From Geodermatophilus siccatus (GTDB taxonomy: Bacteria; Actinomycetota; Actinomycetes; Mycobacteriales; Geodermatophilaceae): 64,000 bases of DNA. This document shows, piece by piece, positions 5,928 through 64,000 of this stretch. The translations under genes and the position numbers were made by a program. The stretch covers positions 396,109 through 460,108 of the forward strand of contig NZ_FNHE01000001.1 in NCBI RefSeq assembly GCF_900103785.1, written 5' to 3'. The notes below the pieces were generated by a model. It was given only the letters and a program-made list of their open reading frames with translations. It was not told the DNA's origin and did no database searches. Numbering within the stretch: position 1 is the stretch's first letter; each line of letters begins with the position of its first letter.

Positions 5928-5941
5928 GGGGGTCCCCCGGT

Positions 5942-6021
5942 GATCAGCTGAGCTGGTCGTCGGGGGTCCTGGCTCACCACCGGCGCTGAGCCAGGACACC
6001 CGACCGTGGGCTCAGCTGATC
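5942..6021. terminator. Nested palindrome between convergent rmlA and gtrA
   Basis: An outer pair GATCAGCTGAGC (5942-5953) and GCTCAGCTGATC (6010-6021) encloses an inner pair GTCCTGGCTCA (5966-5976) and TGAGCCAGGAC (5987-5997) with a 10-base loop, plus a short CGGG/CCCG extension. The 80-bp element can fold into a long two-stage stem from either strand, which suits a bidirectional terminator. The outer arms are unusually exact. Confidence 0.6.
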
Positions 6022-6051
6022 GTCGGGAGACGGTCGCCGCGGTTCGCGTGG

Positions 6052-27050: not shown

Positions 27051-27737
27051 ATGGCAGTCGCAGATCCCGAGGTCGGGGCGCCGACCCCCGTGCGGAACGG
27101 ACTGGAGGTCGTCGCCGGACTGGTCGACGCCTACGCCGGGCGCACCCCCGTGGAGTCGGTCGCCGTCGTCGGCAACGCCCCCGTGCCCGCCGATCCCGAG
27201 CGGGCCGCGGCGATCGACGCGGCCGACCTGGTGGTCCGCGTGAACGGCTTCGCCCTCGACGGTCCGCAGCACCCCCGGGGGCTGGGCACGCGCGCCGACG
27301 TCGTCGTCACCCAGTGGGCCCTTGAGGCCACGCCGTGGGTCTTCGCCGACTACCGGTCCCGGCTCTACCTCTACAACGAGCCCGGGATGATGTACGCCGA
27401 CGTCGAGCGGCTGCCCGCCTGGTGGCCCCCGGACCTCGGCCTGGTGCCGATCCCCAACCGCGAGGTCAACCAGCCGCTGTCCCGCGCGCTCGGCTTCGAC
27501 CCGGCCCAGCCGCGGTGGGCGACGACGGGCACGGTCGCGGCCTGGCTGGTGCGCCGGCTCTACCCGGAGGCGCGGCTGCTGCTCGCCGGGTTCTCCTTCA
27601 TCTGGACCCCGGTGCAGTCGACCTGGGACCACGCCTACGGCGGGGCCTCGGTCCTGACCGGGGACCACGAGCTCATCGCGGAGGCCACCATGCTGCGCAG
27701 CTGGATCGAGGACGGCAGCGCGGAGTACCTCCGGTGA
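27051..27737 (+). CDS. GT29-like (sialyltransferase family) glycosyltransferase
   Basis: The 228-residue protein has the sequence pattern of GT29 enzymes. SVAVVGNAP... with DLVVRVNGFALDG and GLGTRADVVVTQ fits sialylmotif L. ATTGTVAAWLVRRLYPEARL with LLLAGFSF fits sialylmotif S. DHELIAE gives the HX4E of motif VS, where the catalytic His lies. It is shorter than animal sialyltransferases and has no signal or membrane helix, so it would act in the cytosol. NeuC, NeuB and NeuA in the same window could supply a CMP-nonulosonate donor, but the acceptor is unknown. GTGA overlap couples it to the next gene. Homology rests on motif reading only. Confidence 0.7.
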   Translation: MAVADPEVGAPTPVRNGLEVVAGLVDAYAGRTPVESVAVVGNAPVPADPERAAAIDAADLVVRVNGFALDGPQHPRGLGTRADVVVTQWALEATPWVFADYRSRLYLYNEPGMMYADVERLPAWWPPDLGLVPIPNREVNQPLSRALGFDPAQPRWATTGTVAAWLVRRLYPEARLLLAGFSFIWTPVQSTWDHAYGGASVLTGDHELIAEATMLRSWIEDGSAEYLR

Positions 27738-28315
27738 GCGGCCCCCTGCGCCGGCTCGCGGTCGCGGCCCGGGTGAACCCGGTGTGGGCGCGCGTGCAGC
27801 GCAAGCTCGACGCCGTCGTCGCCGTCCGCACCGAGCCGGCCCTGCAGGGCGTGCGCGAGCGCGTGGAGCACGTCGACGCCGGCCTGCGTGCGGAGCTGCG
27901 GGCCGAGCTGCAGGCCGCCCTCGACGGGCTGCGCCGCACCGTCGACGAGCGCTGCGACGCCCTCGCCGGTGACGTCCGGCGTCTCGAGGACGAGGTGCGC
28001 CGGGTGTCCGGCGAACTGGCCGAGCTGCGCGAGCAGCACGGCCGGGTCTCCTTCGACGTCGACCGGCTGGGGCCGCACGTGGCCGCCCTCGAGGTCCGGA
28101 TCGCCGACCGGGAGCGCGCGGAGGGGCCGGTCGAGGTCGGCTCCCCGGAGGACGTCCCGGAGGCGCGCCGCCTGCTCGACGAGGTGGTCCGCGAGCACGA
28201 GCGGATCCGGGTGCGGTTGAGCGGCATCGCGCTCTACGAGGAGCGGCTGCGCAAGCTGGAGGCCGCCCGCTGGCCCGGCGCCGCCACCGGCTCCGACGGC
28301 GCCGGCACCGCCTGA
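27734..28315 (+). CDS. Coiled-coil protein, unknown function
   Basis: The 193-residue protein is mostly charged heptad-type sequence from about residue 25 to 125 (ALQGVRERVEHVDAGLRAEL, RRLEDEVRRVSGELAELREQ) and again at the C-terminus (LYEERLRKLEAARW), so it is probably a helical coiled coil. No enzyme motif or membrane segment is seen. GTG 27734 overlaps the stop of the GT29-like gene (GTGA), which points to a shared job, perhaps positioning or oligomerising the transferase. I do not recognise the family. Confidence 0.75.
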   Translation: MSGPLRRLAVAARVNPVWARVQRKLDAVVAVRTEPALQGVRERVEHVDAGLRAELRAELQAALDGLRRTVDERCDALAGDVRRLEDEVRRVSGELAELREQHGRVSFDVDRLGPHVAALEVRIADRERAEGPVEVGSPEDVPEARRLLDEVVREHERIRVRLSGIALYEERLRKLEAARWPGAATGSDGAGTA

Positions 28316-28385: not shown

Positions 28386-31247
28386 TCAGCGCCGGGAGGC
28401 GCTGGCCACCTGCTGGTCGGTCACGTCGATGACGCCGTGCTCGAACTCGGTGTGCGTCCCCTCGGGGGTCTCCTCCGTGTCGGAGATCGGGTAGCCCAGC
28501 CAGGACGTCGTCTCACCCAGCTCGACGTAGTGGTCGGCGGCCTCGCCCACCACCACGTGGGCGCCGGTCGCCGGCGACCAGTAGAGGGCGCCCCCCTGCA
28601 GCGCCACCTTGGCGCCGCCGCCACCGGGCGCGGGCCCGTCGTCGGCCGTCGGGTAGCCCAGTGCCTGCGGGCCCCCGACGGCGAGGTAGTGCTCGAGCAG
28701 GGCGCCGCGCACCACCTTCGCGCCGGCGGCCGGCGACCAGTACACGGTGCCGCCGCGGAAGCTGGTCAGGTACCCGCCGTTCGGGCCAGCGGTGTCGTCC
28801 CCGGTCGGGTAGCCCAGTGCCCCGGACTCCGCGCCCCACTGCCGCCACTTCGCCAGGATCTCGCCGCGCACGACCCGCGCGCCGGTGGCCGACGACCAGT
28901 AGATCGCGCCGCCCTGCAGCTCGATCTTGGCGCCGCCGCCTGCCGCGGCGACGTCGTCGGTGCTCGGGTAGCCCAGCGCCGCGGGGCCACCGGCGGCCAC
29001 GTAGCGCTCGAGGATCGCCCCGCGCACCACCTTGGCGCCGGTCGGCTGCGACCAGTAGACGGTGCCGCCGCGGAAGGTGGTGAGGTACCCGCCGTTCGCG
29101 GCGGCCGCGTCGTCCCCGGTCGGGTAGCCCAGTGCCCCGGACTCCGCGCCCCACTGCCGCCACTTCGCCAGGATGTTCCCGCGGACGACGTGCGCACCGG
29201 TCGCCTGCGACCAGTAGATCGCGCCGCCCTGCACCTCGGCCTTGGCGCCGCCGCCCGCCGCCGCGACGTCGTCGGTCGTCGGGTAGCCCAGGACCCGCGG
29301 CCCGCCGTGGGCGACGTAGCGGTCGAGGATCGCCCCGCGCAGCACCTTCGCGCCGGTCGGCTGCGACCACCAGATCGTGCCGCCGCGGAAGGTGGTGAGG
29401 TACCCGCCGTTCGGCGCGGCCGCGTCGTCACCGGTCGGGTAGCCCAGCGCACCGGACTCGGCACCCCACTGCCGCCACCGGGCGAGGATGTCGCCGCGGA
29501 CGACGTGGGCACCCGTGGCCGACGACCAGTAGATCGCGCCGCCCTGCACCTCGGCCTTGGCGCCGCCGCCCGCCGCGGCGACGTCGTCGGTCGTCGGGAA
29601 GCCGAGCACCGGCGCGCCGCCGTGGGCGAGGTAGCGGTCCAGGATCGCGCCGCGCAGCACGTGCGCCCCGGTCGGTGCCGACCAGTAGACGTGCCCGCCC
29701 TGGAAGGTGGTCCGGAAGCCGGAGGCGTGGGCCTGGTCGTCGCCGGTCGGGTAGCCGAGCACCCCGGCCTCCGCGCCCCACTGCCGGTAGGTCGCCAGGA
29801 TGTCCCCGCGGACGACGCGTGCGCCGGTCGCCGAACTCCAGTAGACGGCCCCGCCGGTCAGGTCGACGGCCGCGCCGTTGCGCGCCGTGGGCCGCTCGTC
29901 GGCCACCGGGAAGCCGATCACCCGGGGACCGCCGGCGGCCTCGTACCGTTCGAGCAGCGCGCCGCGGATCATCCGGGCGCCGGTGGCCTGCGACCAGTAG
30001 AGCGTCCCGCCCTGGAACCGGCTGCGGAAGCCGCCGGGGACCGCCTCGTCGCCGCCGACCGGGTAGCCGAGGACCCCGGACTGGGCGCCCTTGGCGCGCC
30101 ACGCGGCGAGCAGGTTGCCGCGCACCTCACGAGCCCCGGTCGCCTGCGACCAGTAGATCGACCCGCCCTGGAAGTCGGTGAAGTACCCGGGGTTCACCGG
30201 GGCCGCGGTGTCGTCGCCGGTCGGGTAGCCGAGGAACGGCACCCCGCCGAGGGCGAGGAAGTGCTGCAGGATCGCGCCGCGGACGACGTGGGCGCCTGTG
30301 TAGCGGGACCAGAAGATGGTGCCGCCCTGCCAGCTGCCGCGGCAGCCGCCGTTGGGCAGGTCGCAGATCACGCCCGTGGTCTGCGCGCCCAGGTCCACGC
30401 CGGACGCCTTGAGCTGGTCGTACTTGCCCCGGATCGACTCCTCCCCCGACGCCTGGGTGCTGCCGAACCAGTCGGTGAAGTAGAGGTAGAAGTTGCGGTT
30501 GCCGTAGGCCGAGCAGCCGTCGCCGGTCCCGTAGCCGGCGTCCAGCGCGGCCCTGTTGGGCGTGTACGGGGTGTAGTTGTAGAGCCCCGCGGTGGCCTGG
30601 TTCTGGATGTAGACCGGCACGGTGCCGCACGCCGCGTTCGGGTGGTAGCGGACGTTGTTGACCACGCCCACCCGGTGACCGAACGAGCCGGGGTGCGCCC
30701 GGTAGTACTGGAAGCGGTGTGCCGCGTTGTACAGCTGGTTGTAGAAGCCGTAGTACTGCGCGTCGCAGGGTGCGGTGTCCGGGCAGCCGTAGCCCACCGC
30801 CTTGCGGAGCTTCTCCTCCGTCGGGGCCGACGTCTTGATCAGGCTCTGCTCCTTCTGCAGCATCACCAGGAGCACCTGGGGGTTGACCCCGCAGGCGCGG
30901 CCGACCTTGGCGATGATCTGAGCCGCCCGCTCGCCCACCACCCCCTCGTAGCTCCCGCAGTAGCCGTCGGCGGCACGGGTCCAGGTGTCCTGCCGCAGGT
31001 TCTTCAGGCACAGGCTGCTGGTGCAGCTGGCACCCTCGCGCTCGAGGAACGCCTGGACCTGCGCGGTGTCCATCGTGGCGGGGTCGTAGAAGACGCTGTC
31101 GCTGATGATGTTGCCCGGGTCGAACGACCGCGCGTCGGCCGACTCGTGCAGGCTCTGCTGCTGGGGTGAGGAGCCGGCGACGAAGGCGAGGGCGAGCGCC
31201 AGGGCGACCAGACAGGGCGCGAGCAGGCGGAGGCGGGACGACCTCAC
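28386..31247 (-). CDS. Secreted LGFP-repeat cell-wall protein with N-terminal hemagglutinin-like domain
   Basis: The 953-residue protein starts at GTG 31247 (GTGA overlap with the upstream gene) with a signal peptide (VRSSRLRLLAPCLVALALAL). A domain of about 230 residues follows (FDPGNIISDSVFYDPATM, VNPQVLLVMLQKEQSLI, YGFYNQLYNAAHRFQYYRA), seen in actinobacterial wall proteins sometimes labelled hemagglutinin; the AQVQAFLE and QKEQ parts hint at a lysozyme-like fold. Six or more cysteines suggest disulfides. About twelve LGFP units follow (GYPTGDD, GFPTTDD types), which in corynebacteria anchor proteins to the wall or mycomembrane. Its central units are nearly identical at the DNA level. Confidence 0.88.
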   Translation of the reverse strand: MRSSRLRLLAPCLVALALALAFVAGSSPQQQSLHESADARSFDPGNIISDSVFYDPATMDTAQVQAFLEREGASCTSSLCLKNLRQDTWTRAADGYCGSYEGVVGERAAQIIAKVGRACGVNPQVLLVMLQKEQSLIKTSAPTEEKLRKAVGYGCPDTAPCDAQYYGFYNQLYNAAHRFQYYRAHPGSFGHRVGVVNNVRYHPNAACGTVPVYIQNQATAGLYNYTPYTPNRAALDAGYGTGDGCSAYGNRNFYLYFTDWFGSTQASGEESIRGKYDQLKASGVDLGAQTTGVICDLPNGGCRGSWQGGTIFWSRYTGAHVVRGAILQHFLALGGVPFLGYPTGDDTAAPVNPGYFTDFQGGSIYWSQATGAREVRGNLLAAWRAKGAQSGVLGYPVGGDEAVPGGFRSRFQGGTLYWSQATGARMIRGALLERYEAAGGPRVIGFPVADERPTARNGAAVDLTGGAVYWSSATGARVVRGDILATYRQWGAEAGVLGYPTGDDQAHASGFRTTFQGGHVYWSAPTGAHVLRGAILDRYLAHGGAPVLGFPTTDDVAAAGGGAKAEVQGGAIYWSSATGAHVVRGDILARWRQWGAESGALGYPTGDDAAAPNGGYLTTFRGGTIWWSQPTGAKVLRGAILDRYVAHGGPRVLGYPTTDDVAAAGGGAKAEVQGGAIYWSQATGAHVVRGNILAKWRQWGAESGALGYPTGDDAAAANGGYLTTFRGGTVYWSQPTGAKVVRGAILERYVAAGGPAALGYPSTDDVAAAGGGAKIELQGGAIYWSSATGARVVRGEILAKWRQWGAESGALGYPTGDDTAGPNGGYLTSFRGGTVYWSPAAGAKVVRGALLEHYLAVGGPQALGYPTADDGPAPGGGGAKVALQGGALYWSPATGAHVVVGEAADHYVELGETTSWLGYPISDTEETPEGTHTEFEHGVIDVTDQQVASASRR
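28640..29900 (-). repeat. Tandem LGFP array with 315-bp higher-order period
   Basis: Inside the 953-residue LGFP gene, the identical block beginning CCGGTCGGGTAGCCCAG recurs at 28801, 29116 and 29431 (315 bases apart), with a diverged copy at 29743. Each 315-bp unit holds two LGFP repeats of 52 to 53 residues, so repeats alternate in A-B pairs. Positions given are approximate ends of the homogenised part. Confidence 0.8.
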
Positions 31248-32026: not shown

Positions 32027-34816
32027 TCACTGGGACACGGCGACGGCCCCGCTGGTGGCGTTCCACGTCATCGAGCCGTGCTCGAAGTCGGTGCGCATCC
32101 CGCCGGTGATCGCGTAGCTGGACCGGGTCGGGAAGCCCAGCGCCGAGGCGCTGCCGCCCCGCTGCCAGTAGGTCCTGGCCATCGCGCCGGAGACCACCTG
32201 GGTGCCGGTCGCCGGCGACCAGTACACGTCGCCGCCGGTGAAGCGGACGACGTAGCCGCGGCCGTCGGCGGTCTTCGCGTCGCTGGTGGTCGGGAAGCCC
32301 AGCGGGCCGGTCGCGCCCCCGGCGGCCAGCCAGGTGGACAGGATGGAGCCACGCACCACCTGGGTGCCGGTCGTCGGCGACCAGTACACGTCACCGCCCT
32401 GGAAGCGCACGAAGTAGCCGCGGCCGTCCGCGGTCGCCGCGTCGCTCGTGGTCGGGAAGCCCAGCGGGCCGGTCGCCCCGCCGGTGGCCAGCCAGGTGGA
32501 CAGGATCGAGCCGCGCACGATGCGGGGGCCGGTGGCGGCGGACCAGTAGACGTCGCCGCCCTGGAACCGCACGAAGTAGCCGCGGCCGTCGGTGGTCGCC
32601 GCGTCGCTGGTGGTCGGGAAACCGAGGTAGCCGGTCGCCCCGCCGGTGGCCAGCCAGGCGTTCAGGATCTCGCCGCGCACGATCCGGGTGCCGGTGGTCG
32701 GCGACCAGTAGACGTCGCCGCCCTGGAAGCGGACGTAGGCGCCCTTGCCGGGGACGGGGGTGTCGCTGGTGGTCGGGAAGCCCAGGTAGCCCCCCGGGCC
32801 GCCGGTGGCCAGCCAGGTGTCCCGGATCGAGCCGAGGACGGTGCGGGCGCCGGTGGCCTGCGACCAGTAGACGTCGCCGCGCTGGAAGCGGACGAAGTAG
32901 CCGCGACCGTCCGGCGTGGGCGCGTCGCTCGTGGTGGGGAAGCCCAGGCCCCCGGTCGGCCCGCCGGCGGCGCGGTAGGCGTCGAGGATGTCGCCGCGCA
33001 CGATGCGGGTGCCGGTCGTCGGCGACCACAGCACCTCGCCGCCCTGGAAGCGGACGTAGGCGCCCGTGCCGGCGGGGGTGTCGCTCGTCGTCGGGAAGCC
33101 GAGGAAGCCCGTCGGCCCTCCTGCGGCCAGCCAGGTGTCGCGGATCGAGCCGAGGACGGTGCGGGCGCCGGTGGCCTGCGACCAGTAGACGTCGCCCCGC
33201 TCGAAGCGGACGAAGTAGCCGCCGCCCCCCGGCGTGGGCGCGTCGCTCGTGGTCGGGAAGCCCAGCCCCCCGGTGGCGCCGCCGGCGGCGAGCCAGGCGG
33301 CCAGGATGTCGCCGCGGACCAGCTGCGAGCCGGTCGCCGGCGACCAGTAGACGTCGCCGTGCTGGAAGCGGACGAAGGCACCGCGCCCCCCGGGGGTCGG
33401 CGCGTCGTCGGTGATCGGTGGCCCGAGCACCGCCGGCCCGCCCGCAGCGAGGTAGCGGTCCAGGATGCCGCCGAGCACCAGCCGGACGCCGCCGAGCGGC
33501 GAGGAGTACAGCCGGGCGCCGTTCGCGTAGACCTGCCAGGTGACGCCGGCCGCCGACTGCTCACCGCCCACCGGCGCGCCGAGCCACGCCCGCAGGCCGG
33601 CGTCGGAGTCGTAGCGGGTCGCGATCGGGGACTTGGTGTTCGCCATCCGGGCGGCCGCCTTGTCGCGGATCTCGCCCAGCCGCGCGTAGCCGTACCGCCC
33701 GGGGCACGCGGTGCTCTTGGTGTCGCGGTGCCCGAACACCGTCGGCAGGGTCACCCGGGCACCCGCGGCGTACTTGTCCGTGCCGCCCGACGTGAGCGTC
33801 GTCGTCCCCTTGGGGTTGACGCCGTACAGGGAGAACTTCCAGGCGATGATCGCCGCGACCGAGTCGATCATGGCCTGGGGCGTGTCGACGACGTCGTAGT
33901 TGCCCATCATCGACACCCCGAAGGTCGAGGTGTTGAAGCCGCCCGCGTGCGCGCCGACCACGGTGCTCGCCAGGCCGCCGGAGCGGCCCTCCCAGAGCCG
34001 GCCGAACTTGTCGACGAGGACGTTGTAGCCGATGTCGCCCCAGCCCAGGCTCTGCGCGTGGTACGTGTAGGTCGAGCGCAGGATCGCCGGCACCTGGTCG
34101 GCGGTGTAGTTGTTCGACCCGGCGGTGTGGTGCAGCGTCGCGGCCTTGATGGTGCTGGCGTACTGCGGGGTCCACCTCATGAGGTTCTCGTCGGCGCCCC
34201 ACTGCGCCCGGGAGAAGACAGGCGGCATCGCCACCGCCGCGTCGGCGGTCTCGGTGATGTCGGGGTCGCCGAGCGAGGCGTCGGCCGGGCTCTCGCCCGG
34301 GTCGACCAGGTCCAGCTGCACGTCGGTGGGCTGCGCGCCGGAGCGGGTCACCAGCTCGGCCTCCACCGCGGTCGCCGGACCGGTCCACAGCGGCGCCGTC
34401 CCGCCCCGGACGGGGTGGCCGGTGTCCGTCTCGGCCTCCTGCTCGGCCGCCTCCGCGCTGACCTCCGTCCACGTCCCCCAGGCGCCGTCGGAGTCGCGGA
34501 CCCGCACCTGCACGACGGTGTCGGTGACCGCCGGGTCGTACGCCCAGGTGACCCCGACCAGCGAGAACTCGGCGACGTCGGTGGCGCTCACCGACAGCGC
34601 CGGGACGGTGTCGGGCACGCCGGCGACCGGGTCGGTGGTGCCCTCCTGCACCTGCGCCTCGGGCGCGGGGGCGCTGAAGGACCCCATCGCGACCTCCTCC
34701 ACCGACGTCTCGACGGGCACGGCCTCGGGGTCCGGCTCGGCGTAGACGGGCAGCACCAGGACGACCCCGGTGAGGGCGACGAAGGCGGTGGTTCCGGCGA
34801 GCAAGCGGCGACGCAC
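32027..34816 (-). CDS. LGFP-repeat N-acetylmuramoyl-L-alanine amidase (PGRP-type), secreted
   Basis: The 929-residue protein starts at GTG 34816, eight bases after a GGAGG ribosome site. It has a signal segment (LLAGTTAFVALTGVVLVLPV), a pro-region ending about residue 190, then an amidase_2/PGRP domain: SRAQWGADENLMRW, ATLHHTAGSNNYT (zinc His), GYNVLVDKFGRLWEGR, and FGHRDTKSTACPG (second His and Cys). About ten LGFP units follow from residue 435 or so (GLGFPTTSD, YLGFPTTSD). It would cleave the bond between MurNAc and L-Ala at the wall while bound there. It lies 169 bases downstream of rmlD, same direction. Confidence 0.93.
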   Translation of the reverse strand: MRRRLLAGTTAFVALTGVVLVLPVYAEPDPEAVPVETSVEEVAMGSFSAPAPEAQVQEGTTDPVAGVPDTVPALSVSATDVAEFSLVGVTWAYDPAVTDTVVQVRVRDSDGAWGTWTEVSAEAAEQEAETDTGHPVRGGTAPLWTGPATAVEAELVTRSGAQPTDVQLDLVDPGESPADASLGDPDITETADAAVAMPPVFSRAQWGADENLMRWTPQYASTIKAATLHHTAGSNNYTADQVPAILRSTYTYHAQSLGWGDIGYNVLVDKFGRLWEGRSGGLASTVVGAHAGGFNTSTFGVSMMGNYDVVDTPQAMIDSVAAIIAWKFSLYGVNPKGTTTLTSGGTDKYAAGARVTLPTVFGHRDTKSTACPGRYGYARLGEIRDKAAARMANTKSPIATRYDSDAGLRAWLGAPVGGEQSAAGVTWQVYANGARLYSSPLGGVRLVLGGILDRYLAAGGPAVLGPPITDDAPTPGGRGAFVRFQHGDVYWSPATGSQLVRGDILAAWLAAGGATGGLGFPTTSDAPTPGGGGYFVRFERGDVYWSQATGARTVLGSIRDTWLAAGGPTGFLGFPTTSDTPAGTGAYVRFQGGEVLWSPTTGTRIVRGDILDAYRAAGGPTGGLGFPTTSDAPTPDGRGYFVRFQRGDVYWSQATGARTVLGSIRDTWLATGGPGGYLGFPTTSDTPVPGKGAYVRFQGGDVYWSPTTGTRIVRGEILNAWLATGGATGYLGFPTTSDAATTDGRGYFVRFQGGDVYWSAATGPRIVRGSILSTWLATGGATGPLGFPTTSDAATADGRGYFVRFQGGDVYWSPTTGTQVVRGSILSTWLAAGGATGPLGFPTTSDAKTADGRGYVVRFTGGDVYWSPATGTQVVSGAMARTYWQRGGSASALGFPTRSSYAITGGMRTDFEHGSMTWNATSGAVAVSQ
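32170..33440 (-). repeat. Tandem LGFP array with 159/162-bp period
   Basis: Inside the amidase gene the block CGCTSGTGGTCGGG recurs at 32281, 32443, 32605, 32764 and 32926, each 162 or 159 bases apart, encoding 54- or 53-residue LGFP units. Neighbouring units share long near-identical stretches. End points are approximate. Confidence 0.8.
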
Positions 34817-34985: not shown

Positions 34986-35882
34986 TCAGCGGGGCGGCCA
35001 CTCCTGCAGCGCGAGGTGCAGCGCCGTCCGCCACGGCCGCGGCGCCGGCAGCCCGGCGGCCAGCCACGCGCTGCCGTCGAGCACCGACCACGCCGGGCGG
35101 GGCGCCGGGCGCGGGAACGCCTCGGTCGTCGTCGGGGTGACCAGGCACGGGTCGGCGCCGACCTCCTCGTAGACGGCGCGCGCCAGGCCGTACCAGCTGA
35201 CCGCGCCGGCGTCGGTGCGGTGCAGCACCGGCGGCACGGGCCCCGGCCGGGCGCCGAGCGCCACGAGACCGGTGGCCAGGTCGGCCGCCCACGTCGGCGA
35301 GCCGACCTGGTCGTCGACCACGGAGGACGGGGCGCCGTCGAGGGCGCGGCCGGCCATGGTGCGCACGAAGTTGGCGCCGTGCGCGCCGTACACCCAGGCG
35401 GTGCGGACGACCGTGGCGTCGCCCCCGGCGGCCGCGACCGCGCGCTCCCCCGCCGCCTTGGTCCGGCCGTAGGCCGAGCGCGGCGCGACCGGGGCGTCCA
35501 CCCGGTAGGGCTCGGTGGCCTCGCCGTCGAAGACGTAGTCGGTGGAGACGTGCACCAGCCGCCCGCGCCCGGCCAGCTCCTCGGCCAGCCAGCCGGGTGC
35601 GCGGCCGTTGACCAGCAGCGCGGTCTCCTCGTCGGTCTCCGCGGCGTCCACGGCGGTGTAGGCGGCGGCGTTGAGGACGACGGGGCGGGCCCCGCGGACG
35701 CCGTCCAGCCAGCGGCGGACGACGTCGCGCACCTGCCGCTCGTCGGTCAGGTCGAGCTCGGCGCGGCCCAGCGCGGTGACGCGGTCCCCGGGCCGGCCGG
35801 CCAGGACGGCGAGCAGGTCGCCGCCGAGCTGCCCGCGGGCGCCGGTGACCAGCCAGGCGGTCGGGTGGTCCGGTCCGGTCAT
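34986..35882 (-). CDS. rmlD: dTDP-4-dehydrorhamnose reductase
   Basis: The 298-residue SDR has WLVTGARGQLGGDLL at about 9-23, LNAAAYTAVDAAETDE, LVHVSTDYVFDG, PRSAYGRTKAAGE (YxxxK) and VVDDQVGSPTWAADLA, all RmlD hallmarks. It makes dTDP-L-rhamnose, the donor for WbbL and possibly other rhamnosyltransferases. ATG 35882 overlaps the rmlB stop (ATGA). Order rmlB-rmlD with WbbL at 17980 fits the Rv3264c-Rv3266c region, here separated by the galactan and LGFP blocks. Confidence 0.97.
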   Translation of the reverse strand: MTGPDHPTAWLVTGARGQLGGDLLAVLAGRPGDRVTALGRAELDLTDERQVRDVVRRWLDGVRGARPVVLNAAAYTAVDAAETDEETALLVNGRAPGWLAEELAGRGRLVHVSTDYVFDGEATEPYRVDAPVAPRSAYGRTKAAGERAVAAAGGDATVVRTAWVYGAHGANFVRTMAGRALDGAPSSVVDDQVGSPTWAADLATGLVALGARPGPVPPVLHRTDAGAVSWYGLARAVYEEVGADPCLVTPTTTEAFPRPAPRPAWSVLDGSAWLAAGLPAPRPWRTALHLALQEWPPR

Positions 35883-36886
35883 GCGCGGGCGGGAGCCGCC
35901 GTGTCCACGAGCCGGGCCTTGAGCGGCTCCCACCAGGCCCGGTTGTCCCGGTACCACTGCACGGTGAGGGCGAGCCCGTCCTCGAAGCCCATCCGCGGCG
36001 CGTAGCCGAGCGCGGCGGTCTTGGAGTAGTCCACCGAGTAGCGCAGGTCGTGGCCGCCGCCGCGCGGGTCCACGATGTTCTCGACGTAGCTCCAGTCGCG
36101 GCCGGTGGCCTCGAGCAGCTTCTCGGTCAGCTCCCGGTTGGACAGCTCCCGGCCGCCGCCGATGTTGTAGAACTCGCCGGGCTGCCCCTTCTCCACGACC
36201 AGCTGGATGCCGCGGCAGTGGTCGTCGACGAACAGCCAGTCGCGCACGTTGGCCCCCTCGCCGTACAGCGGCACCTTGTGCCCGTCGAGCAGGTTGGTGA
36301 CGAACAGCGGGATGACCTTCTCGGGGAAGTGGTACGGCCCGTAGTTGTTGCTGCACCGGGTGATGGAGATGTCCAGCCCGTAGGTCTTCGCGTAGGCGCG
36401 GGCGATCAGGTCCCCGCCGGCCTTGGCCGCCGAGTACGGCGAGTTCGGCTCCAGGACGTGGTCCTCGGTCCACGAGCCCTCGTCGATCGAGCCGTAGACC
36501 TCGTCGGTGGAGACGTGCACGACCCGGCGGACGCCGTGCCGCAGGCAGGCCTCGAACACCTGCTGGGCGCCGAGCACGTTGGTCAGCACGAACTCCGAGG
36601 CGCCGGTGATCGAGCGGTCGACGTGCGACTCGGCGGCGAAGTTGACGACGACGTCGTGGCCGGGCAGGGCGGCGTCGAGGTCGGCGGCGCTGCAGATGTC
36701 ACCCCGCACGAACCGGTAGCGCGGCGAGTCGGCCACCGGCGTCAGGTTGGCCGGGTTGCCGGCGTAGGTGAGCTTGTCGAAGACGGTCACCTCGGCGTCC
36801 TCGAAGCCCGGGTAACCGCCGGTCAGCATGGTCCGGACGTAGTGCGAGCCGATGAAGCCCGCTCCCCCGGTGACGAGCACGCGCAT
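35879..36886 (-). CDS. rmlB: dTDP-glucose 4,6-dehydratase
   Basis: The 335-residue enzyme opens MRVLVTGGAGFIGSHYVRTM and has NFAAESHVDRS, VHVSTDEVYGSI, PYSAAKAGGDLIARAY (YxxxK) and SNNYGPYHFPEKVIP, as in RmlB. It converts dTDP-glucose to the 4-keto-6-deoxy sugar. ATG 36886 lies seven bases after a GGAGGA ribosome site. It is divergent from neuA across 83 bases. rmlC, the 3,5-epimerase, is missing from the window and must lie elsewhere. Confidence 0.97.
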   Translation of the reverse strand: MRVLVTGGAGFIGSHYVRTMLTGGYPGFEDAEVTVFDKLTYAGNPANLTPVADSPRYRFVRGDICSAADLDAALPGHDVVVNFAAESHVDRSITGASEFVLTNVLGAQQVFEACLRHGVRRVVHVSTDEVYGSIDEGSWTEDHVLEPNSPYSAAKAGGDLIARAYAKTYGLDISITRCSNNYGPYHFPEKVIPLFVTNLLDGHKVPLYGEGANVRDWLFVDDHCRGIQLVVEKGQPGEFYNIGGGRELSNRELTEKLLEATGRDWSYVENIVDPRGGGHDLRYSVDYSKTAALGYAPRMGFEDGLALTVQWYRDNRAWWEPLKARLVDTAAPARA

Positions 36887-36956
36887 GGGGCGATCCTCCC
36901 GTGCCGGGCCGGCGGGGTCATCCTCCCGCGGGGTGAGGCGTGTCGCCCAGCGCTGT

Positions 36957-36969: not shown

Positions 36970-37662
36970 GTGCCGGGTCCGGGGAACGCACCGCGGGTGG
37001 TCGCCGTCGTCCCGGCCCGGGCCGGCTCGCAGGGCCTGCCCGGCAAGAACCTCGCCCGGATCGGTGGGCTCTCCCTCGTCGGCCACGCCGCCCGCGCCGC
37101 CCGGGACGCCGGCGTCGACGAGGTCGTCGTCACCACCGACGGCGCCGGCATCGCGGCCGAGGCCCGGGCGCTCGGGTGCACCGTCGTCGACCGGCCGGCC
37201 GAGCTGGCCACCGGTGACAGCCGCACGGTGGACGCCGTCCTGCACGCCGTGCGGACGCTGGCGCTGCCCGACGACACCCTCGTGCTGCTCCTGCAGCCCA
37301 CCTCGCCGCTGCGCACCGGGGACGACGTGCGCGCCGTCCTGGACCGGCACGCGGCCGGGGGCGTGGGCAGCACGCTCACCGGCTGCGCGGTCGCCCACCA
37401 CCCGCTCAAGCAGCTGCTCGTCGACGACGCGGGGACGGCGTCCCCGGTGCGCACCTGGGCCGACCTCGAGGCACCGCGCCAGCAGCTGCCCCGCGCGCTG
37501 CGCCCGAACGGCGCGGTCTACGTGACCGCTGCCGGCGCCATGGCCGCGGCCGGGGCCGTCCTGGTGCCCCCGCTCGCCGTGGTCGAGATGCCCGAGGAAC
37601 GCAGCCTCGACGTCGACACCGCCGAGGACCTCGCCGCCGCCCGGGCGGCCCTGGAGGGCTAG
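36970..37662 (+). CDS. neuA: CMP-nonulosonate (sialic acid) cytidylyltransferase
   Basis: The 230-residue protein begins near VVAVVPARAGSQGLPGKNL, the CTP-binding motif of NeuA/KdsB-like enzymes, then VVVTTDGAGIAAEAR, LLLQPTSPLRTGDDVRAVL and RALRPNGAVYVTAAG, typical of the NeuA/LegF/PseF group. It activates a nonulosonic acid as its CMP derivative. GTG 36970 is preferred to 36940 because of the -10 element and the conserved start. It is rightward and convergent with neuC, with both stop codons inside a 12-bp palindrome. Whether the sugar is Neu5Ac or a legionaminate cannot be told from sequence. Confidence 0.88.
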   Translation: MPGPGNAPRVVAVVPARAGSQGLPGKNLARIGGLSLVGHAARAARDAGVDEVVVTTDGAGIAAEARALGCTVVDRPAELATGDSRTVDAVLHAVRTLALPDDTLVLLLQPTSPLRTGDDVRAVLDRHAAGGVGSTLTGCAVAHHPLKQLLVDDAGTASPVRTWADLEAPRQQLPRALRPNGAVYVTAAGAMAAAGAVLVPPLAVVEMPEERSLDVDTAEDLAAARAALEG

Positions 37663-37668
37663 GGCGCC

Positions 37669-38826
37669 CTACCCGCCCTCGGCGAGCGGCCGGTCGACGA
37701 AGCGCTTCTGCAGCCCGAGGTCCCACACCTCGTCCCCGCAGACGGCCTCGACGATCCGCGCGGCGGCGCCGACGGACCCGAAGTGCTCCTCGGGCCGGCT
37801 GCGCCCCGCCGCCCGGGCCTCCCGGATCGCGCCGGCCACCTCCGCGGCGACCGCCGGCACGTGCCGGACCGAGGCCGCCGGGGAGCGGTCGGTCTGCCGC
37901 GACCCGACGTCCACCGACGGCGTCCCGAGCACCGGCGCCTCCCGGACGCCGCTGCTGGAGTTGCCGACGACGACCTCGGCGTGCCGGACCAGCGTCAGGT
38001 AGGCGGGGAAGCGCATCGACGGCAGGCGGACGACGTCCGGGCGGCCGTCGAGGCGCTCGAGCGCGGCCCGGACGTCGTGGGTGCCCTCGTCGTTGTTGGG
38101 GTCGATGACCACCCACGAGCCGCCGGCGGCGAGCACGCCGTCGACGACCGCCTCGGCGTGCCGGCGGTTGAGCTCGAGCTCGGTGGTCACCGGGTGCAGC
38201 GCCAGGACGCCGTAGGGCGGGGCCGGGGTGCCGTAGTGGTCGCGCACCGGGGCCAGGTCCGAGTCCGCCGCCACCGCGAGCGCGTCGGCCTCCGGGCTGC
38301 CGACGACCAGCACCCGCTCGGCCTCCTCACCCAGCTGCAGCAGCCGGGCGCGGGCGTGGTCGTTGGCCACGAAGTGCACGTGGGCGTGCTTGCTCAGCGA
38401 GTGCCGGATGGCGTCGTCGATCGTCCCGGAGACCTCACCGCCCTCGACGTGGGCGACGCGGGTATTGGTGAGGCTGCCGGCCAGCGCCCCGGCCAGGGCC
38501 TCGACCCGGTCGCCGTGCACCAGCACCATGTCCGCCGACTCCGCGAGCAGCAGCCGGGTGATCGAGTTGATGCTGTTGGCCAGCACCAGCGCCATCGGCT
38601 CGTCCTCGACCTGGTTGGGCACGTGGTGCAGCGCCCGCAGGCCGGCCCGCTCGATCTCCCGCAGCGTGTAGCCGTACCGGTGCAGCAGGTGCATGCCGGT
38701 GACCACGAGCGAGAACTCGATGCCCGGGGCCGCCTGCAGCCCCAGGTAGACGTCGCGCATCTTGCCGAAGTCCGCGCGCGTGCCGGTGAGGCCGACGACG
38801 CGCCGGGGCCGTCCGAGAGCCGTCAC
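37669..38826 (-). CDS. neuC: UDP-N-acetylglucosamine 2-epimerase, hydrolysing type
   Basis: The 385-residue protein has VVGLTGTRADFGKMRDVYLG, MVLVHGDRVEALAGA, VAHVEGGEVSGTIDDAIRH, LALHPVTTE and GNSSSGVREAPVLGTPSVDVG, diagnostic of hydrolysing NeuC/LegG-type epimerases that release ManNAc (or its diacetamido analogue) from the UDP sugar. GTG 38826 overlaps the neuB stop (GTGA), so neuB-neuC are coupled. Together with neuB and neuA it completes a CMP-nonulosonate pathway. Confidence 0.9.
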   Translation of the reverse strand: MTALGRPRRVVGLTGTRADFGKMRDVYLGLQAAPGIEFSLVVTGMHLLHRYGYTLREIERAGLRALHHVPNQVEDEPMALVLANSINSITRLLLAESADMVLVHGDRVEALAGALAGSLTNTRVAHVEGGEVSGTIDDAIRHSLSKHAHVHFVANDHARARLLQLGEEAERVLVVGSPEADALAVAADSDLAPVRDHYGTPAPPYGVLALHPVTTELELNRRHAEAVVDGVLAAGGSWVVIDPNNDEGTHDVRAALERLDGRPDVVRLPSMRFPAYLTLVRHAEVVVGNSSSGVREAPVLGTPSVDVGSRQTDRSPAASVRHVPAVAAEVAGAIREARAAGRSRPEEHFGSVGAAARIVEAVCGDEVWDLGLQKRFVDRPLAEGG

Positions 38827-39872
38827 GCTTCAGCCAGGTCGGACCACGCCACCTGCACGTCGGCGGGCAGGTCGCGGCTCGCCCGCCGGCCGAGCAGCTC
38901 GTCGTAGTGCTTGGCCACGACCTCGCCGGTGCCGGGGCGCTTGACCCACAGGTTGTCGACGGTGAACTCCTCACCGGCGCCGACCGGCTTGGTCGTCACG
39001 ACGCAGGCGTAGGCGAAGTCGATGGTGGGCTGCTCCTCCGGGAGGATCTCCTTGCGCCCGCCGCGGGCCATGCCGAGCACGTCGGCGCCCTCGATGAGCC
39101 GGGCGAACTCCTCCGGGGTGCTCGAGATCGGGATGTCCGGCCCGCTCCAGGTCAGGTCCGAGGTGAAGTGCCGCTCGAGCACCGCGGCACCGACGGCGAC
39201 CGCGCCGAGGCAGGCGTAGATCGACGTGGTGTGGTCCGACAGGCCCAGGACGGCGTCGGGGAAGGCCTCCCCCAGCTCGGTGATCCCGCCGAGGCGGACC
39301 TTCTCCGGCGGGGTCGGGTACATGCTCGTGCAGTGCATCAGCGCGAACGGCACCCCGCTGGCGCGCAGCAGCTCCACCGACGGGCGGATGGTGCTGACGT
39401 CGTTCATCCCGGTGCTCAGCAGCACCGGCTTGCCGAACGAGGCGATGTGCCGGACCAGCGGGTAGTTGTTGCACTCCCCCGAGCCGATCTTGAACGCGGG
39501 GACGTCGAGCTCGGCCAGCCGGTCGGCCGCGGCCCGGCTGAACGGCGTGGACAGCGCCAGCATCCCGCGCTCGTGCGCGTGGGCGAACACCTCGCGCTCC
39601 TCGCTCGCCGAGAGCGCACAGCGCTGCATCATCCCGTAGATCGACTCGTCGGCGTTCCCGGGCACGACGTCGTTGGGGATCATCTCGTCCTCGACGACGT
39701 GCGACTGGAACTTGACGCACTCCACCCCCGCGTCGGCGGCGTCGTCGATCATGCGGTGCATCCGGTCGAGGTCGCCGTCGTGGTTGATGCCGAGCTCGGC
39801 GATCACCAGAGGTCGCTCGCCGGGACCGACCCGGCGGGCGCCGATGGACAGGGTCCCCGGGGTGTTCGTCAT
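38823..39872 (-). CDS. neuB: N-acetylneuraminate/nonulosonate synthase
   Basis: The 349-residue enzyme has PLVIAELGINHDGDLDRM at about 21-38, VKFQSHVVEDEM, FKIGSGECNNYPLV, STGMNDVSTI, HCTSMYPTPPEKVRLG, LSDHTTSIYA and VLERHFTSD, then a C-terminal SAF antifreeze-like domain (FAYACVVTTKPVGAGEEFTV onward). NeuB condenses ManNAc (or an analogue) with phosphoenolpyruvate to give the nonulosonic acid. ATG 39872 is preceded by TACCGT six bases upstream, suggesting a leaderless start. Paired with neuC. Confidence 0.93.
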   Translation of the reverse strand: MTNTPGTLSIGARRVGPGERPLVIAELGINHDGDLDRMHRMIDDAADAGVECVKFQSHVVEDEMIPNDVVPGNADESIYGMMQRCALSASEEREVFAHAHERGMLALSTPFSRAAADRLAELDVPAFKIGSGECNNYPLVRHIASFGKPVLLSTGMNDVSTIRPSVELLRASGVPFALMHCTSMYPTPPEKVRLGGITELGEAFPDAVLGLSDHTTSIYACLGAVAVGAAVLERHFTSDLTWSGPDIPISSTPEEFARLIEGADVLGMARGGRKEILPEEQPTIDFAYACVVTTKPVGAGEEFTVDNLWVKRPGTGEVVAKHYDELLGRRASRDLPADVQVAWSDLAEA

Positions 39873-39884: not shown

Positions 39885-39989
39885 CGAGCCGGACCCCCGC
39901 CGCCCGCGACTGCTGCGTCGCCCCAGCACCGCTGGTCACACCCGTCCCGTTTCGCCACGTGACGCGAGCCGGGCGCGGCTCACGGCACC

Positions 39990-39995
39990 TAGCAT
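39990..39995 (+). promoter_or_regulatory. Candidate -10 element for the LCP gene (TAGCAT)
   Basis: TAGCAT followed by CGCCC resembles the other -10 elements of the window but lies 116 bases before the GTG at 40112, implying a 5' leader of about 110 bases. A motif shared with the glf upstream region starts at 39935. Confidence 0.35.
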
Positions 39996-40111
39996 CGCCC
40001 TCAGCCTCCGGGTCGACGCCCGCCGCTCTCGACGGCAGCCGCACCCAGGCCGGCCCCGGTCACGACGGATCGGCGTCGTGTCCGCGCGGACGAGCACGAG
40101 GAAGGACCCCC

Positions 40112-41668
40112 GTGAGACGAGAGAACCCCGGAGCGGGTGGCGACCGGCAGCTGCCGGCGCGCCTGGACCCCCGGGCCGGCCGCGCCGGCTCTCCCCGCGC
40201 CCGGTCCCGCTCCCAGGCGGCGGACGAGCCCGCCGAGGAGGGTCCGGCGCCGCGCCGGCGCACCGGCCGCGCCGCCACCGCGGCTCGCGCCGTCGCCGGG
40301 GTGCTGTCGGTCGTGCTGCTCGCCGGGTCCGGCTGGGGCTGGTACCTCGGCCAGGTCGCCGAGGCGACGGTCAACCGCACCGACGCCATCCCGACCGACG
40401 GCAACGACGACACCGGGAACGCGCCCGAGGCGGTGAACCTGCTGCTGGTCGGCAACGACAGCCGCGCCAACCTCAGCGACGAGCAGCTGGCCAGCCTCAA
40501 CGCCGGCACCGACTCGGGCATCAACACCGACACGATGATCCTGGTGCACATCCCGGCCGACGGGTCGCGCGCCTCCTTCGTCTCCTTCCCCCGCGACTCC
40601 TACGTGGAGATCCCCGGCTACGGGATGGACAAGCTCAACGCCGCCTACGCGTACGGCTACGCCGACACCCCGGAGACCGCCTCCACCGAGGTCCGCCAGG
40701 CCGGCGGGGCCCAGCTGCTGGTGCAGACGATCAGCGGGCTGACCGGCCTGCAGATCGACCACTACGCCGAGGTCGACCTGCTCGGCTTCTTCAACCTCAG
40801 CTCCGTCGTCGGCGGCGTCGAGGTCAACCTGTGCGAGGCCGTCGACGACTCCGAGTGGTCCGGCGCGGTGTTCCCCGCCGGCGTCCAGACGATCAGCGGC
40901 GCCGACGCGCTGAAGTTCGTCCGCCAGCGGCACGGCCTGCCCCGCGGCGACTTCGACCGGATCGTCCGCCAGCAGGTCTTCATCGCCGGCGTGCTGCGCA
41001 AGATGCTCTCCGACGAGGTCATGCTGAACCTGGGCAAGCAGCGGGAGCTGGTCGAGGCGGCGTCCCAGTCGCTGACCATCGACCAGGGCCTGGACCTGTT
41101 CCAGCTGGCCGAGCAGATGCAGTCGGTGACCGCCGGCAGCATCGAGTTCCAGACCATCCCCTACGTCGGCACCGACCGCGACGAGCAGGACCGCTCGATC
41201 ATCCGGCTCGAGGACGAGGACACCCTCCACGCCTTCTTCGCCGACCTGTCCGCCGAGCCCGCGGCACCGGCCGGGACCACGCCCGCCGCGCCCGAGACGG
41301 TCGCGCCGTCCGCGGTGACCGTCGACGTCCTCAACGGCTCGGGCACCTCCGGGCTCGCCGCCCAGGCCGCCGCCGCGCTGGAGACCGCCGGGTTCGCCGT
41401 CGGGACGACCGGCAACGCCGACTCCTCCGGCTACGACACCACCGTCGTCCGCTACGCCGCCGGCGACGAGACCCTGGCCGCCACGCTGGCCGCGGCGGTG
41501 CCGGGCGCGGTCGTCGAGGAGGACGCGGACGCCGTCTCCGGCACCGTGCAGCTGGTGCTCGGCTCGGACTTCAACGCGGTGGGCCAGGCCGTCGACCCGG
41601 CCGCCCCGTCGGAGCCGGTCGAGGGCGAGGACGCCCGCACCGCGGCCGACACCGGCTGCATCAACTGA
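40112..41668 (+). CDS. LytR-CpsA-Psr (LCP) family wall-polymer ligase with LytR_C domain
   Basis: The 518-residue protein has a basic, Arg/Pro-rich cytosolic start, a membrane helix near 58-77 (AVAGVLSVVLLAGSGWGWYL), an LCP domain from about 105 (VNLLLVGNDSR, TDTMILVHIPADG, SFPRDSYVEIPG, ADALKFVRQRHGLPRGDFDR), and a C-terminal LytR_C domain at about 400-475 (VTVDVLNGSGTSGLAAQA). It transfers lipid-linked wall polymers, here probably arabinogalactan, to peptidoglycan, as Rv3267 (Lcp1) does. GTG 40112 follows a GAGGAAGGA ribosome site. Confidence 0.94.
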   Translation: MRRENPGAGGDRQLPARLDPRAGRAGSPRARSRSQAADEPAEEGPAPRRRTGRAATAARAVAGVLSVVLLAGSGWGWYLGQVAEATVNRTDAIPTDGNDDTGNAPEAVNLLLVGNDSRANLSDEQLASLNAGTDSGINTDTMILVHIPADGSRASFVSFPRDSYVEIPGYGMDKLNAAYAYGYADTPETASTEVRQAGGAQLLVQTISGLTGLQIDHYAEVDLLGFFNLSSVVGGVEVNLCEAVDDSEWSGAVFPAGVQTISGADALKFVRQRHGLPRGDFDRIVRQQVFIAGVLRKMLSDEVMLNLGKQRELVEAASQSLTIDQGLDLFQLAEQMQSVTAGSIEFQTIPYVGTDRDEQDRSIIRLEDEDTLHAFFADLSAEPAAPAGTTPAAPETVAPSAVTVDVLNGSGTSGLAAQAAAALETAGFAVGTTGNADSSGYDTTVVRYAAGDETLAATLAAAVPGAVVEEDADAVSGTVQLVLGSDFNAVGQAVDPAAPSEPVEGEDARTAADTGCIN

Positions 41669-47621: not shown

Positions 47622-48827
47622 TCAGTGCTCGGTCGGGAAGGCGAACGCCGGGTCGACCTCGCCGTCGGCCAGGTAGCGGGCGGCCGCGGTGGCCCGGGCG
47701 CGCACCTCGTCGAGGTCGGTGCCCAGCGCGGTCACGTGGCCCAACTTGCGGCCGGGGCGCTGCCCCTTGCCGTACCAGTGCAGCTTCACGTCGGGCCAGT
47801 GGGCCATCAGGTGGTGCACCCGCTCGTCGAGGCCGGGGCCGGTCCAGCCCTCCTCGGTGGCGCGCCCGCCGAGCACGTTGGCCATCACCACGACCGGCGC
47901 GGCCATCGCCGTGGCACCCAGCGGGTAGTCGAGGACGGCGCGCAGGTGCTGCTCGAACTGGCTGGTCCGCGAGCCCTCGATGGTCCAGTGCCCGGAGTTG
48001 TGCGGCCGCATCGCCAGCTCGTTGACCAGGACGCCGTCCGCCGTCTGGAACAGCTCGACGGCCATGACCCCGACGACGCCGACCCGGTCGGCCACCCGCA
48101 CCGCGAGCTCCTGGGCGGCGGTCGCGGTGTCCTCGTCCAGCCCGGGCGCGGGCGCGAGCACCTCGGTGTTGATGCCGTCGCGCTGCACGGTCTCGACCAC
48201 GGGCCAGACGGAGACCTGCCCGAAGGGCGAGCGGGCGACCAGCGCGGAGAGCTCCCTGACCATCGGGACCCGCTGCTCGGCGAGCAGGACGTCGTACCGG
48301 GCGAGGAGCTCGGCGACGTCGTCCGGCCGGTCGACGACGAACACCCCGCGCCCGTCGTAGCCGCCGCGCGGCGTCTTGACGACCACCGGCCAGCCGTGCC
48401 GGTCACCGAAGGCCGCGACCTCGTCGACGGAGGCGACCTCGGCCCAGGCCGGCTGCGGCTCGCCGGCGGCGGCCAGCGCCCGGCGCAGGACCAGCTTGTC
48501 CTGCGCGTGCACCAGCGCGTCGGGGCCGGGGGCGACCCGGTGACCGGCCGACTCCAGAGCGCGCAGGTGCTCGGTGGGCACGTGCTCGTGGTCGAAGGTG
48601 ACCACGGTGGCGCCGTCGGCGAGGGCGAGGAGGGCGTCGAGGTCGCGGTGGTCGCCGAGGCGGACGTCGGCGGCCACCAGCGCGGCGGACTCGTCGGGGC
48701 CGGTGGAGAGGACCCGCAGCGACTGGCCGAGCGCGATGGCTGCCTGGTGGGTCATCCGGGCCAGCTGGCCACCGCCGACCATGGCGACGACGGGCAGTCC
48801 GGTGCGCGGGTCGACGGGGGTGGCCAC
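47622..48827 (-). CDS. purK: N5-carboxyaminoimidazole ribonucleotide synthase
   Basis: The 401-residue ATP-grasp enzyme has VAMVGGGQLARMTHQAA, VVTFDHEHVPTEHLRAL, VVKTPRGGYDGRGVFVV, VRELSALVARS, VNELAMRPHNSGHWTIEGSRTSQFEQHL and GKGQRPGRKLGHVTALG, the PurK signature set. It makes N5-CAIR from AIR, ATP and bicarbonate. TAGGGT ends eight bases before the GTG at 48827, which makes that codon a better start than the GTG two codons upstream at 48833. Operon with purE. Confidence 0.96.
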   Translation of the reverse strand: MATPVDPRTGLPVVAMVGGGQLARMTHQAAIALGQSLRVLSTGPDESAALVAADVRLGDHRDLDALLALADGATVVTFDHEHVPTEHLRALESAGHRVAPGPDALVHAQDKLVLRRALAAAGEPQPAWAEVASVDEVAAFGDRHGWPVVVKTPRGGYDGRGVFVVDRPDDVAELLARYDVLLAEQRVPMVRELSALVARSPFGQVSVWPVVETVQRDGINTEVLAPAPGLDEDTATAAQELAVRVADRVGVVGVMAVELFQTADGVLVNELAMRPHNSGHWTIEGSRTSQFEQHLRAVLDYPLGATAMAAPVVVMANVLGGRATEEGWTGPGLDERVHHLMAHWPDVKLHWYGKGQRPGRKLGHVTALGTDLDEVRARATAAARYLADGEVDPAFAFPTEH

Positions 48828-63658: not shown

Positions 63659-64000
63659 TCAGCCGGTGGTCGTCTCGATCGTGCCGTCAGGCCGCTCGGT
63701 GAGCGTGCCGTTCTGGAAGCGGACCTGCCAGCCGCCGCCGTCGGGCAGCGCGACGTGGTCGGTGACCGGGAAGCCGAGCGACCCGGCCGGTCCCCCGTCC
63801 GCCAGCCAGTGCGTGAGGATGCCGCCCCGGACGGCGTGCGCTCCGGTGGACGGTGACCAGTAGACCGACCCGCCCGCGAAGTCCGTCTTCCACCCGCCGG
63901 GCACCGCGGTGTCGTCGCCGGTCGGGTAGCCGAGGACCCCGGTCTGGGCGCCCAGCGAGCGCCAGTGCTCCAGGATCGCGCCCCGCACGTCGTGGGCGCC
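63659..64000 (-). CDS. C-terminal end of an LGFP-repeat protein (partial)
   Basis: The reading frame is open through the right edge; the last 113 codons show two LGFP-type units (VLGYPTGDDTAVPGGW, SLGFPVTDHVALPDGGGW) with the usual YWSPSTGAHAVRGGIL connector and a short tail ending TIETTTG. It is a third LGFP gene in the window, in addition to those at 28386 and 32027. The start lies outside the window, so length and upstream domains are unknown. Confidence 0.9.
   Translation of the reverse strand, partial: GAHDVRGAILEHWRSLGAQTGVLGYPTGDDTAVPGGWKTDFAGGSVYWSPSTGAHAVRGGILTHWLADGGPAGSLGFPVTDHVALPDGGGWQVRFQNGTLTERPDGTIETTTG

Follow-up and report, generated by a model that had tools for sequence, protein, structure and literature searches.

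Which sugar do the neuA, neuB and neuC genes of Geodermatophilus siccatus make, and which glycan of the cell envelope receives it? These genes lie in a 64,000-nucleotide stretch of contig NZ_FNHE01000001.1 (positions 396,109 to 460,108; hereafter the window), where a gene for a small GT29-type sialyltransferase (P0001), followed by a partner gene, is located about 9 kb from them. The favoured reading, to which a probability of about 0.58 is assigned, is that NeuC, NeuB and NeuA make cytidine monophosphate-N-acetylneuraminic acid (CMP-Neu5Ac), and that the GT29 enzyme and its partner would add this sugar to the cytosolic, lipid-linked galactan before Wzm-Wzt export. The gene integrity, family and fold assignments, co-occurrence and gene order used in the argument come directly from the analysis. 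The genes of the pathway, with their flanks, and the transferase pair are the following:

27051-27737, + strand, GT29-type sialyltransferase gene (P0001, 228 aa) with the fold and sialylmotifs and no clear transmembrane stretch
27734-28315, + strand, partner gene overlapping the GT29 gene by 4 bases; a 114-residue helix is predicted, likely a coiled coil
34986-35882 and 35879-36886, - strand, rmlD (PF04321, 283.5 bits) and rmlB (TIGR01181, 407.9 bits), genes for deoxythymidine diphosphate-rhamnose
36970-37662, + strand, neuA, CMP-nonulosonate cytidylyltransferase (GTG start at 36970, alternative GTG at 36940)
37669-38826, - strand, neuC, hydrolysing uridine diphosphate-N-acetylglucosamine (UDP-GlcNAc) 2-epimerase (TIGR03568 and similarity to human GNE)
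38823-39872, - strand, neuB, N-acetylneuraminate synthase with an SAF domain (ATG start; PF03102 and SAF)
39959-41668, + strand, LCP-LytR_C glycopolymer ligase (PF03816, 141.1 bits; PF13399, 72.7 bits; the start may be 40301)

A GT29-Type Transferase and Its Partner Gene

The preliminary description of this DNA overlooked the transferase and partner genes (27051-28315). The GT29 assignment of P0001 is well supported by modelling: like the known GT29 sialyltransferases, the predicted structure shows the GT29 fold, across residues 14-228 (ST6GALNAC2, ST3GAL1, ST6GAL1 and ST8SIA3), and retains the residues of the sialylmotifs. In alignment A1, built from P0001 with 40 homologues out of the 120 listed (188 were found), the invariant positions are N42, D56, D59 and R63 (motif L), T158, T159, G160 and G180 (motif S), H194 (motif III) and H206 to E211, as H-x4-E (motif VS). 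The motif names follow PMC5811610, while their placement on P0001 belongs to the present analysis. HMMER also aligns the VS stretch of the family with ST8SIA3, weakly (-1.5 bits). P0001 itself scores 14.1 for PF00777 (gathering score 23), a domain matched by 35 of the 41 A1 members at E<=1 (best 1.3e-9) and carried by 19 of the 120 listed homologues. A single-sequence search of the PDB with P0001 gave no GT29 match; a profile search matched GT29 structures with a best E of 9.2e-4 and others of 0.003-1.2. The protein has zero cysteines, a hydropathy maximum of 1.02 and no clear transmembrane stretch, which fits a cytosolic enzyme.

Bacterial GT29 proteins were first reported in 2018. That report used 23 bacterial sequences, 19 of them from Alphaproteobacteria; it describes bacterial GT29 as lacking both the disulphide cysteines and a transmembrane domain, and states that its trees gave no prediction of function (PMC5811610). 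P0001 likewise has neither a transmembrane segment nor a cysteine. It differs from the known GT29 enzymes in being actinobacterial, 228 residues long, and accompanied by a partner gene, by nonulosonate cassettes and often by galactan export genes. Some relatives (Prauserella, Schumannella) already carry the automatic label “glycosyltransferase family 29” in public databases, which means that the label as such has a precedent.

The partner protein was modelled as a single chain, giving a 114-residue helix (predicted local distance difference test 89.3, predicted template modelling score 0.47) that is likely a coiled coil. Its conservation was followed in a neighbourhood set made of the best 80 of 108 relatives' loci, many from Amycolatopsis. 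All 80 contain a homologue 117-211 codons long (tblastn, E<=1e-4), whose start codon, picked by rule, lies between -10 and +63 bases from the stop of GT29; 76 of the 80 are still found at E<=1e-6. Eight residues are invariant among the 32 sequences of partner alignment A2, and the N-terminus is basic, with a positive net charge in 30 of them. The partner may serve as a tether for the GT29 enzyme.

Co-occurrence with NeuB

GT29 and NeuB-type genes occur in the same 15 of the 112 genomes sampled from the family (Fisher 6e-19, uncorrected for kinship). Order-wide, GT29 is present in 23 of 298 genomes, and each of these also contains NeuB at E<1e-30, a level reached in 34 of the 275 others (Fisher 4e-19, again uncorrected for kinship; the line at 1e-30 was set after the order-wide NeuB list was known, and the two samples overlap in seven GT29 genomes). 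At E<=0.001, NeuB is found in 109 of the 298 genomes, including the 23 with GT29. In the order sample, therefore, NeuB is common without GT29, and GT29 is not seen without NeuB. A search with A1 across the phylum found the family in 2 of 396 genomes, including the window's own, although with seven candidates scored per genome this says little on absence; NeuB (PF03102) reaches 221 of the same 396, with many weak matches, which again indicates that NeuB alone is common without GT29.

The two genes are also close together, 110-2670 bases apart in 20 of the 23 order-wide cases and 11.0-11.6 kb apart in three Geodermatophilus genomes. NeuB lies inside the stretch in 72 of the 80 neighbourhood loci; the other eight are three Geodermatophilus loci with NeuB further off, four with a strong NeuB elsewhere and one metagenome-assembled genome with a weak match only.

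Integrity and Accessory Nature of the neu Genes

The preliminary description placed intact neuA, neuB and neuC genes between rmlBD and the LCP gene, and the reading frames, families and flanks confirm it: all three frames are open, with rmlB on one side and the LCP-LytR_C gene on the other. The 4-base overlap of neuB and neuC on the minus strand makes these two genes one operon. Since neuA lies on the opposite strand and converges on the pair, there is no single neuABC operon.

That description missed the accessory nature of the pathway. In eight of the 15 family genomes with NeuB-type genes, counting that of the window, the orthologues are close (81-100% identity). The LCP region was compared in 15 of the 21 NeuB-less Geodermatophilus genomes; at E<=1e-8 it contains neither neu genes nor GT29 or its partner in any of them. 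In the 10 of these 15 regions that show both rmlB and the LCP gene, the gap between the two measures 401-555 bases, against 3.4 kb by the same measure in the window. This patchy distribution, with close NeuB orthologues in eight of 112 genomes, is the point in favour of a locus that is decaying or silent and yields no product. Very little weight can be given to that explanation, given that every gene is open and that GT29-partner pairs are kept in distant families. The ratios of nonsynonymous to synonymous change against two congeners (0.12-0.21 for neuA, neuB and neuC, 0.26-0.39 for GT29 and 0.30-0.55 for the partner gene) also speak against it, and by these sequence comparisons all five genes are under purifying selection.

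The Predicted Sugar

The earlier proposal that NeuB, NeuC and NeuA form a CMP-nonulosonate pathway is well supported by family scores and closest solved structures, from which the activities are predicted. NeuC exceeds the TIGR03568 cut-off (331.6 against 235.9 bits), NeuB contains PF03102 (229 bits) and an SAF domain, and NeuA matches PF02348 (CTP_transf_3) with 68.9 bits against a cut-off of 22.6. The closest solved structures are meningococcal NeuB for NeuB (404.5 bits; 53.6% identity, at 181 of the 338 residues aligned), meningococcal NeuA (1eyr, 171.8 bits) for NeuA and the human GNE epimerase for NeuC (181.9 bits; 125 of 373 residues identical). NeuC scores lower, at 143.7 bits, against the N,N'-diacetylbacillosamine 2-epimerase 5xvs.

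An alignment of NeuB and NeuC with characterised enzymes, suggested in the preliminary description, thus places both nearest to Neu5Ac-type proteins. It also shows that the active sites are largely kept over the positions compared. NeuB is identical to 1xuu at 17 of 18 positions (N184 is replaced by S). NeuC keeps 16 of 20 GNE positions, namely D112, R113, E134, D143, D144, R147, H220, S301, S302, E307 and R321 among others, and differs at S23, K259, H281 and V282.

The earlier description also suggested a search of the genome for legionaminate and pseudaminate genes. No PseB/PglF-type dehydratase was found in the window's own genome, the best PF02719 match (53 bits) being the window's rmlB, and a pseudaminate pathway is accordingly rejected there. 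The best LegC-type match reaches 204 bits against a cut-off of 420. The likeliest product of NeuC, NeuB and NeuA is Neu5Ac, given the meningococcal and GNE affinities, the lack of a PseB/PglF-type protein and the sub-cut-off LegC-type match.

Two family scores weigh against this part of the favoured reading. NeuB stays below the TIGR03569 cut-off (337.9 against 399.65), although this is its best NCBIfam match, so that the name NeuB denotes homology and not a proven equivalog. The best NCBIfam model for NeuA is PseF, also below its cut-off (82.8 against 205.7). Both scores would suit a pathway that ends in legionaminate or another nonulosonate, as would an aminotransferase gene (G000:C20:384511-385527, L152) located upstream of the window at a distance of about 11 kb, whose product belongs to the PseC/LegC superfamily but falls below all cut-offs. 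Such a product is nevertheless improbable in view of the 53.6% identity to meningococcal NeuB, the greater similarity of NeuC to GNE than to the diacetylbacillosamine epimerase and the genome's lack of a detected PseB/PglF-type protein, although no search for LegB was made across the whole genome.

Exchange of Donor Cassettes

Three kinds of cassette accompany GT29 in relatives: the Neu kind of the window, a pseudaminate (Pse) kind and one resembling a pathway for ketodeoxynononic acid (Kdn). In the Pse kind, scanned in L041, PseB and PseI exceed their NCBIfam cut-offs and PseC lies just under. The Kdn-like kind, scanned in L048, contains a fused cytidylyltransferase-phosphatase, whose best model is KDN-9-P phosphatase (116 against a cut-off of 180), the Kdn label thus resting on sub-cut-off best matches. 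Six of the seven Kdn rows belong to Actinokineospora, where NeuB matches a Pse-type query at 40-42% yet adjoins the fused cytidylyltransferase.

On the GT29 tree (88 rows, after removal of eight duplicate or split loci), the Neu and Pse labels change six times each, all forced by supported branches, and the Kdn label four times, two of them forced. Three Geodermatophilus rows were labelled Neu by hand, as the NeuB of these genomes is located outside the retrieved stretch (it is visible in L035-L037), and three Pse-labelled rows have no PseC gene in the stretch; the join of Geodermatophilus and Actinokineospora rows may be a false one caused by long branches. Identities to the window proteins likewise diverge: genome G021 has 87% for NeuB and 48% for GT29, and Blastococcus atacamensis 76% for GT29 and 28% for NeuB. 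Taken with the label changes, these values indicate that transferase and donor pathway have been re-paired several times.

The fusion of a cytidylyltransferase and a HAD phosphatase is found at L048:11267-12448, the locus in which its domains were scanned, and also in L061, L065, L079, L100, L101 and L121; together with a NeuB-type gene and GT29 it likely forms a Kdn-type donor cassette. In the Pse-type cassette of L041, a 499-aa protein (5394-6893, - strand) without an NCBIfam match at 1e-15 occupies the place where the PseG and PseH functions are expected.

In nine of ten NeuB-bearing Blastococcus and g9 genomes, a Neu or Pse cassette with GT29 is present at one common site, between homologues of the window genes 47622-48827 and 53524-57632 (L038-L047, L118, L123 and L128), which looks like a hotspot for the exchange of nonulosonate cassettes. 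We take these two flanking genes to be purK-like and sbcCD-like, respectively, and the genes at 47-58 kb to include purK, purE, sbcC, sbcD and a GtrA-like gene.

The Probable Acceptor

The preliminary description chose the acceptor from the position of the neu genes beside rml and LCP genes alone, a choice that is not supported as it was written. The galactan and export genes near the transferase are the following:

20272-22191, + strand, GlfT2 galactan polymerase (PF19320, 239.2 bits; PF17994, 186.2 bits)
22354-23280, - strand, GlfT1 galactofuranosyltransferase (NF050113, 486.5 bits against a cut-off of 330)
23281-24042, - strand, Wzt-type ATPase of a glycan ABC exporter, 253 aa (PF00005, 81.2 bits), named from its place beside Wzm and GlfT1
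24056-24925, - strand, Wzm-type membrane part of a glycan ABC exporter (PF01061, 56.3 bits)
24934-26796, - strand, second GlfT2-like galactofuranosyltransferase, divergent from the GT29 gene (PF19320 and PF17994)

The galactan half of the name “arabinogalactan locus”, used earlier for this region, is borne out by GlfT1, the two GlfT2-like proteins, Wzm and Wzt; no arabinan gene was seen among the Pfam-scanned window proteins, which do not cover every window gene, so that the full name is not supported as written. The proposed tie between the nonulosonate pathway and wall-galactan genes recurs in both Geodermatophilaceae and Pseudonocardiaceae. GlfT1 (at least 50% identity) and Wzm (at least 40%) share the stretch with GT29 in 53 of the 80 neighbourhood loci, mostly from Pseudonocardiaceae, where the predominant order is GlfT1-Wzt-Wzm-GT29-partner-NeuB.

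From these positions we infer that galactan is the acceptor; the enzyme activities, the identity of the donor and the tethering by the partner are likewise predicted. In the mechanism proposed, NeuC would convert UDP-GlcNAc to N-acetylmannosamine, which NeuB would condense with phosphoenolpyruvate to Neu5Ac, and NeuA would activate this product with cytidine triphosphate to CMP-Neu5Ac. The GT29 enzyme, with His206 as predicted base and held by the partner, would then transfer Neu5Ac in the cytoplasm to the lipid-linked galactan that GlfT1 and GlfT2 assemble. After export of the chain by Wzm-Wzt, an LCP enzyme would attach it to peptidoglycan. Since both CMP-sugars and the assembly of galactan belong to the cytosol and the GT29 protein shows no clear membrane segment, the simplest sequence of events puts the transfer ahead of Wzm-Wzt export. 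That a single transferase stands beside the galactofuranan genes points to a cap or another decoration.

The GT29 enzyme could instead pass the sugar from the CMP-nonulosonate to a different envelope glycan, be it a glycoprotein, a glycolipid or a further wall polymer exported by an ABC transporter, the galactan genes being neighbours merely because envelope genes cluster. The cassette sits away from GlfT1 in nine of the ten NeuB-bearing Blastococcus and g9 genomes, and of 12 Microbacterium loci, 10 have a nearby ABC ATPase with just 35-38% identity to the window Wzt (none is seen in the other two). A separate Kdn polymer, teichulosonic acid, is moreover described for Streptomyces (PMC11481543, PMC7831098). 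Against these points stand the 53 loci with GlfT1 and Wzm near GT29, which span varied cassettes and gene orders, and the GlfT2-like gene that adjoins GT29 in Geodermatophilus, and they make another acceptor less likely.

The favoured reading, with galactan as acceptor, can be extended tentatively to chain length. In mycolate-free actinobacteria, a GT29 enzyme on a coiled-coil rod might act as a length-gauged terminator of galactan, its cap (Neu5Ac, pseudaminate or a Kdn-like sugar) being swapped by cassette in the manner of Gram-negative O-antigen ends. The rod would consist of a basic N-terminal helix at the membrane, the 114-residue helix and a conserved C-terminal helix. This role of GT29 and partner as cap and ruler is hypothetical. 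The window Wzt, with 253 residues, presumably leaves no room for a cap-binding domain such as some O-antigen exporters have, a further point against the favoured reading in that it counts against the cap being read by the exporter.

The second GlfT2-like gene has 75-95% orthologues in seven other family genomes. It was considered as a strict marker of the system and rejected, as two of these genomes (G052 and G059; 75-76%) have neither NeuB nor GT29.

Relation to Known Systems

The pathway shares a hydrolysing epimerase, a NeuB with SAF domain and a cytidylyltransferase with the NeuBCA system of Neisseria meningitidis, from which the best PDB matches of NeuB and NeuA come. By contrast, the window has a wall-galactan context, a Gram-positive soil host and a transferase of the GT29 type, not the capsule type.

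Nonulosonates on actinobacterial envelopes were called little studied in the preliminary description, yet they are not unknown. Walls of Streptomyces carry teichulosonic acid, a Kdn polymer with a Kdn-galactose repeat, as stated in PMC11481543 and PMC7831098. Both would be actinobacterial wall nonulosonates, that of the window by prediction; the Streptomyces compound is a repeat polymer, whereas a cap or decoration is suggested here, a comparison that concerns the glycans.

A working parallel is found in Klebsiella pneumoniae O4, where a CMP-ketodeoxyoctonic acid transferase (GT137), equipped with a coiled-coil ruler, is reported to end the chain that an ABC transporter exports (PMC11231755). 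The two systems share, in the window by prediction, a CMP-ulosonate-dependent glycosyltransferase and a long helical rod within a locus for an ABC-exported glycan. They differ in that the window enzyme is GT29 and not GT137, the rod is a separate protein and the glycan a Gram-positive galactan, termination being known for O4 only.

In the open-access literature, no paper was found that pairs Geodermatophilus with sialic acid, and none on actinobacterial GT29 function or a nonulosonate-bearing galactan was present among the matches listed. What the 2018 report of bacterial GT29 could not offer, these results add for the actinobacterial GT29-type family: a partner protein, a glycan that is probably the acceptor and a pathway predicted to supply the donor. 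The results suggest that mycolate-free actinobacterial galactan may carry a variable anionic sugar. They also make bacterial GT29 function testable in culturable soil genera (Geodermatophilus, Blastococcus and Amycolatopsis) and bear on the proposed bacterial origin of animal sialyltransferases. The small, soluble GT29 enzymes that accompany Neu, Pse or Kdn cassettes might also find use as catalysts.

Other Genes of the Window

Between the GT29 pair and rmlD lie two genes for long LGFP-repeat proteins on the minus strand (28386-31247 and 32027-34804), with 12 and 10 repeats, respectively; the second also includes an N-acetylmuramoyl-L-alanine amidase domain. By eye, the open reading frame at 63659-63988 resembles another LGFP protein. 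Four genes of the envelope region on the minus strand (8889-9995, 11235-13310, 13325-14335 and 14251-15825) have no Pfam match at 1e-3, and the first of them weakly resembles undecaprenyl-phosphate sugar transferases in NCBIfam.

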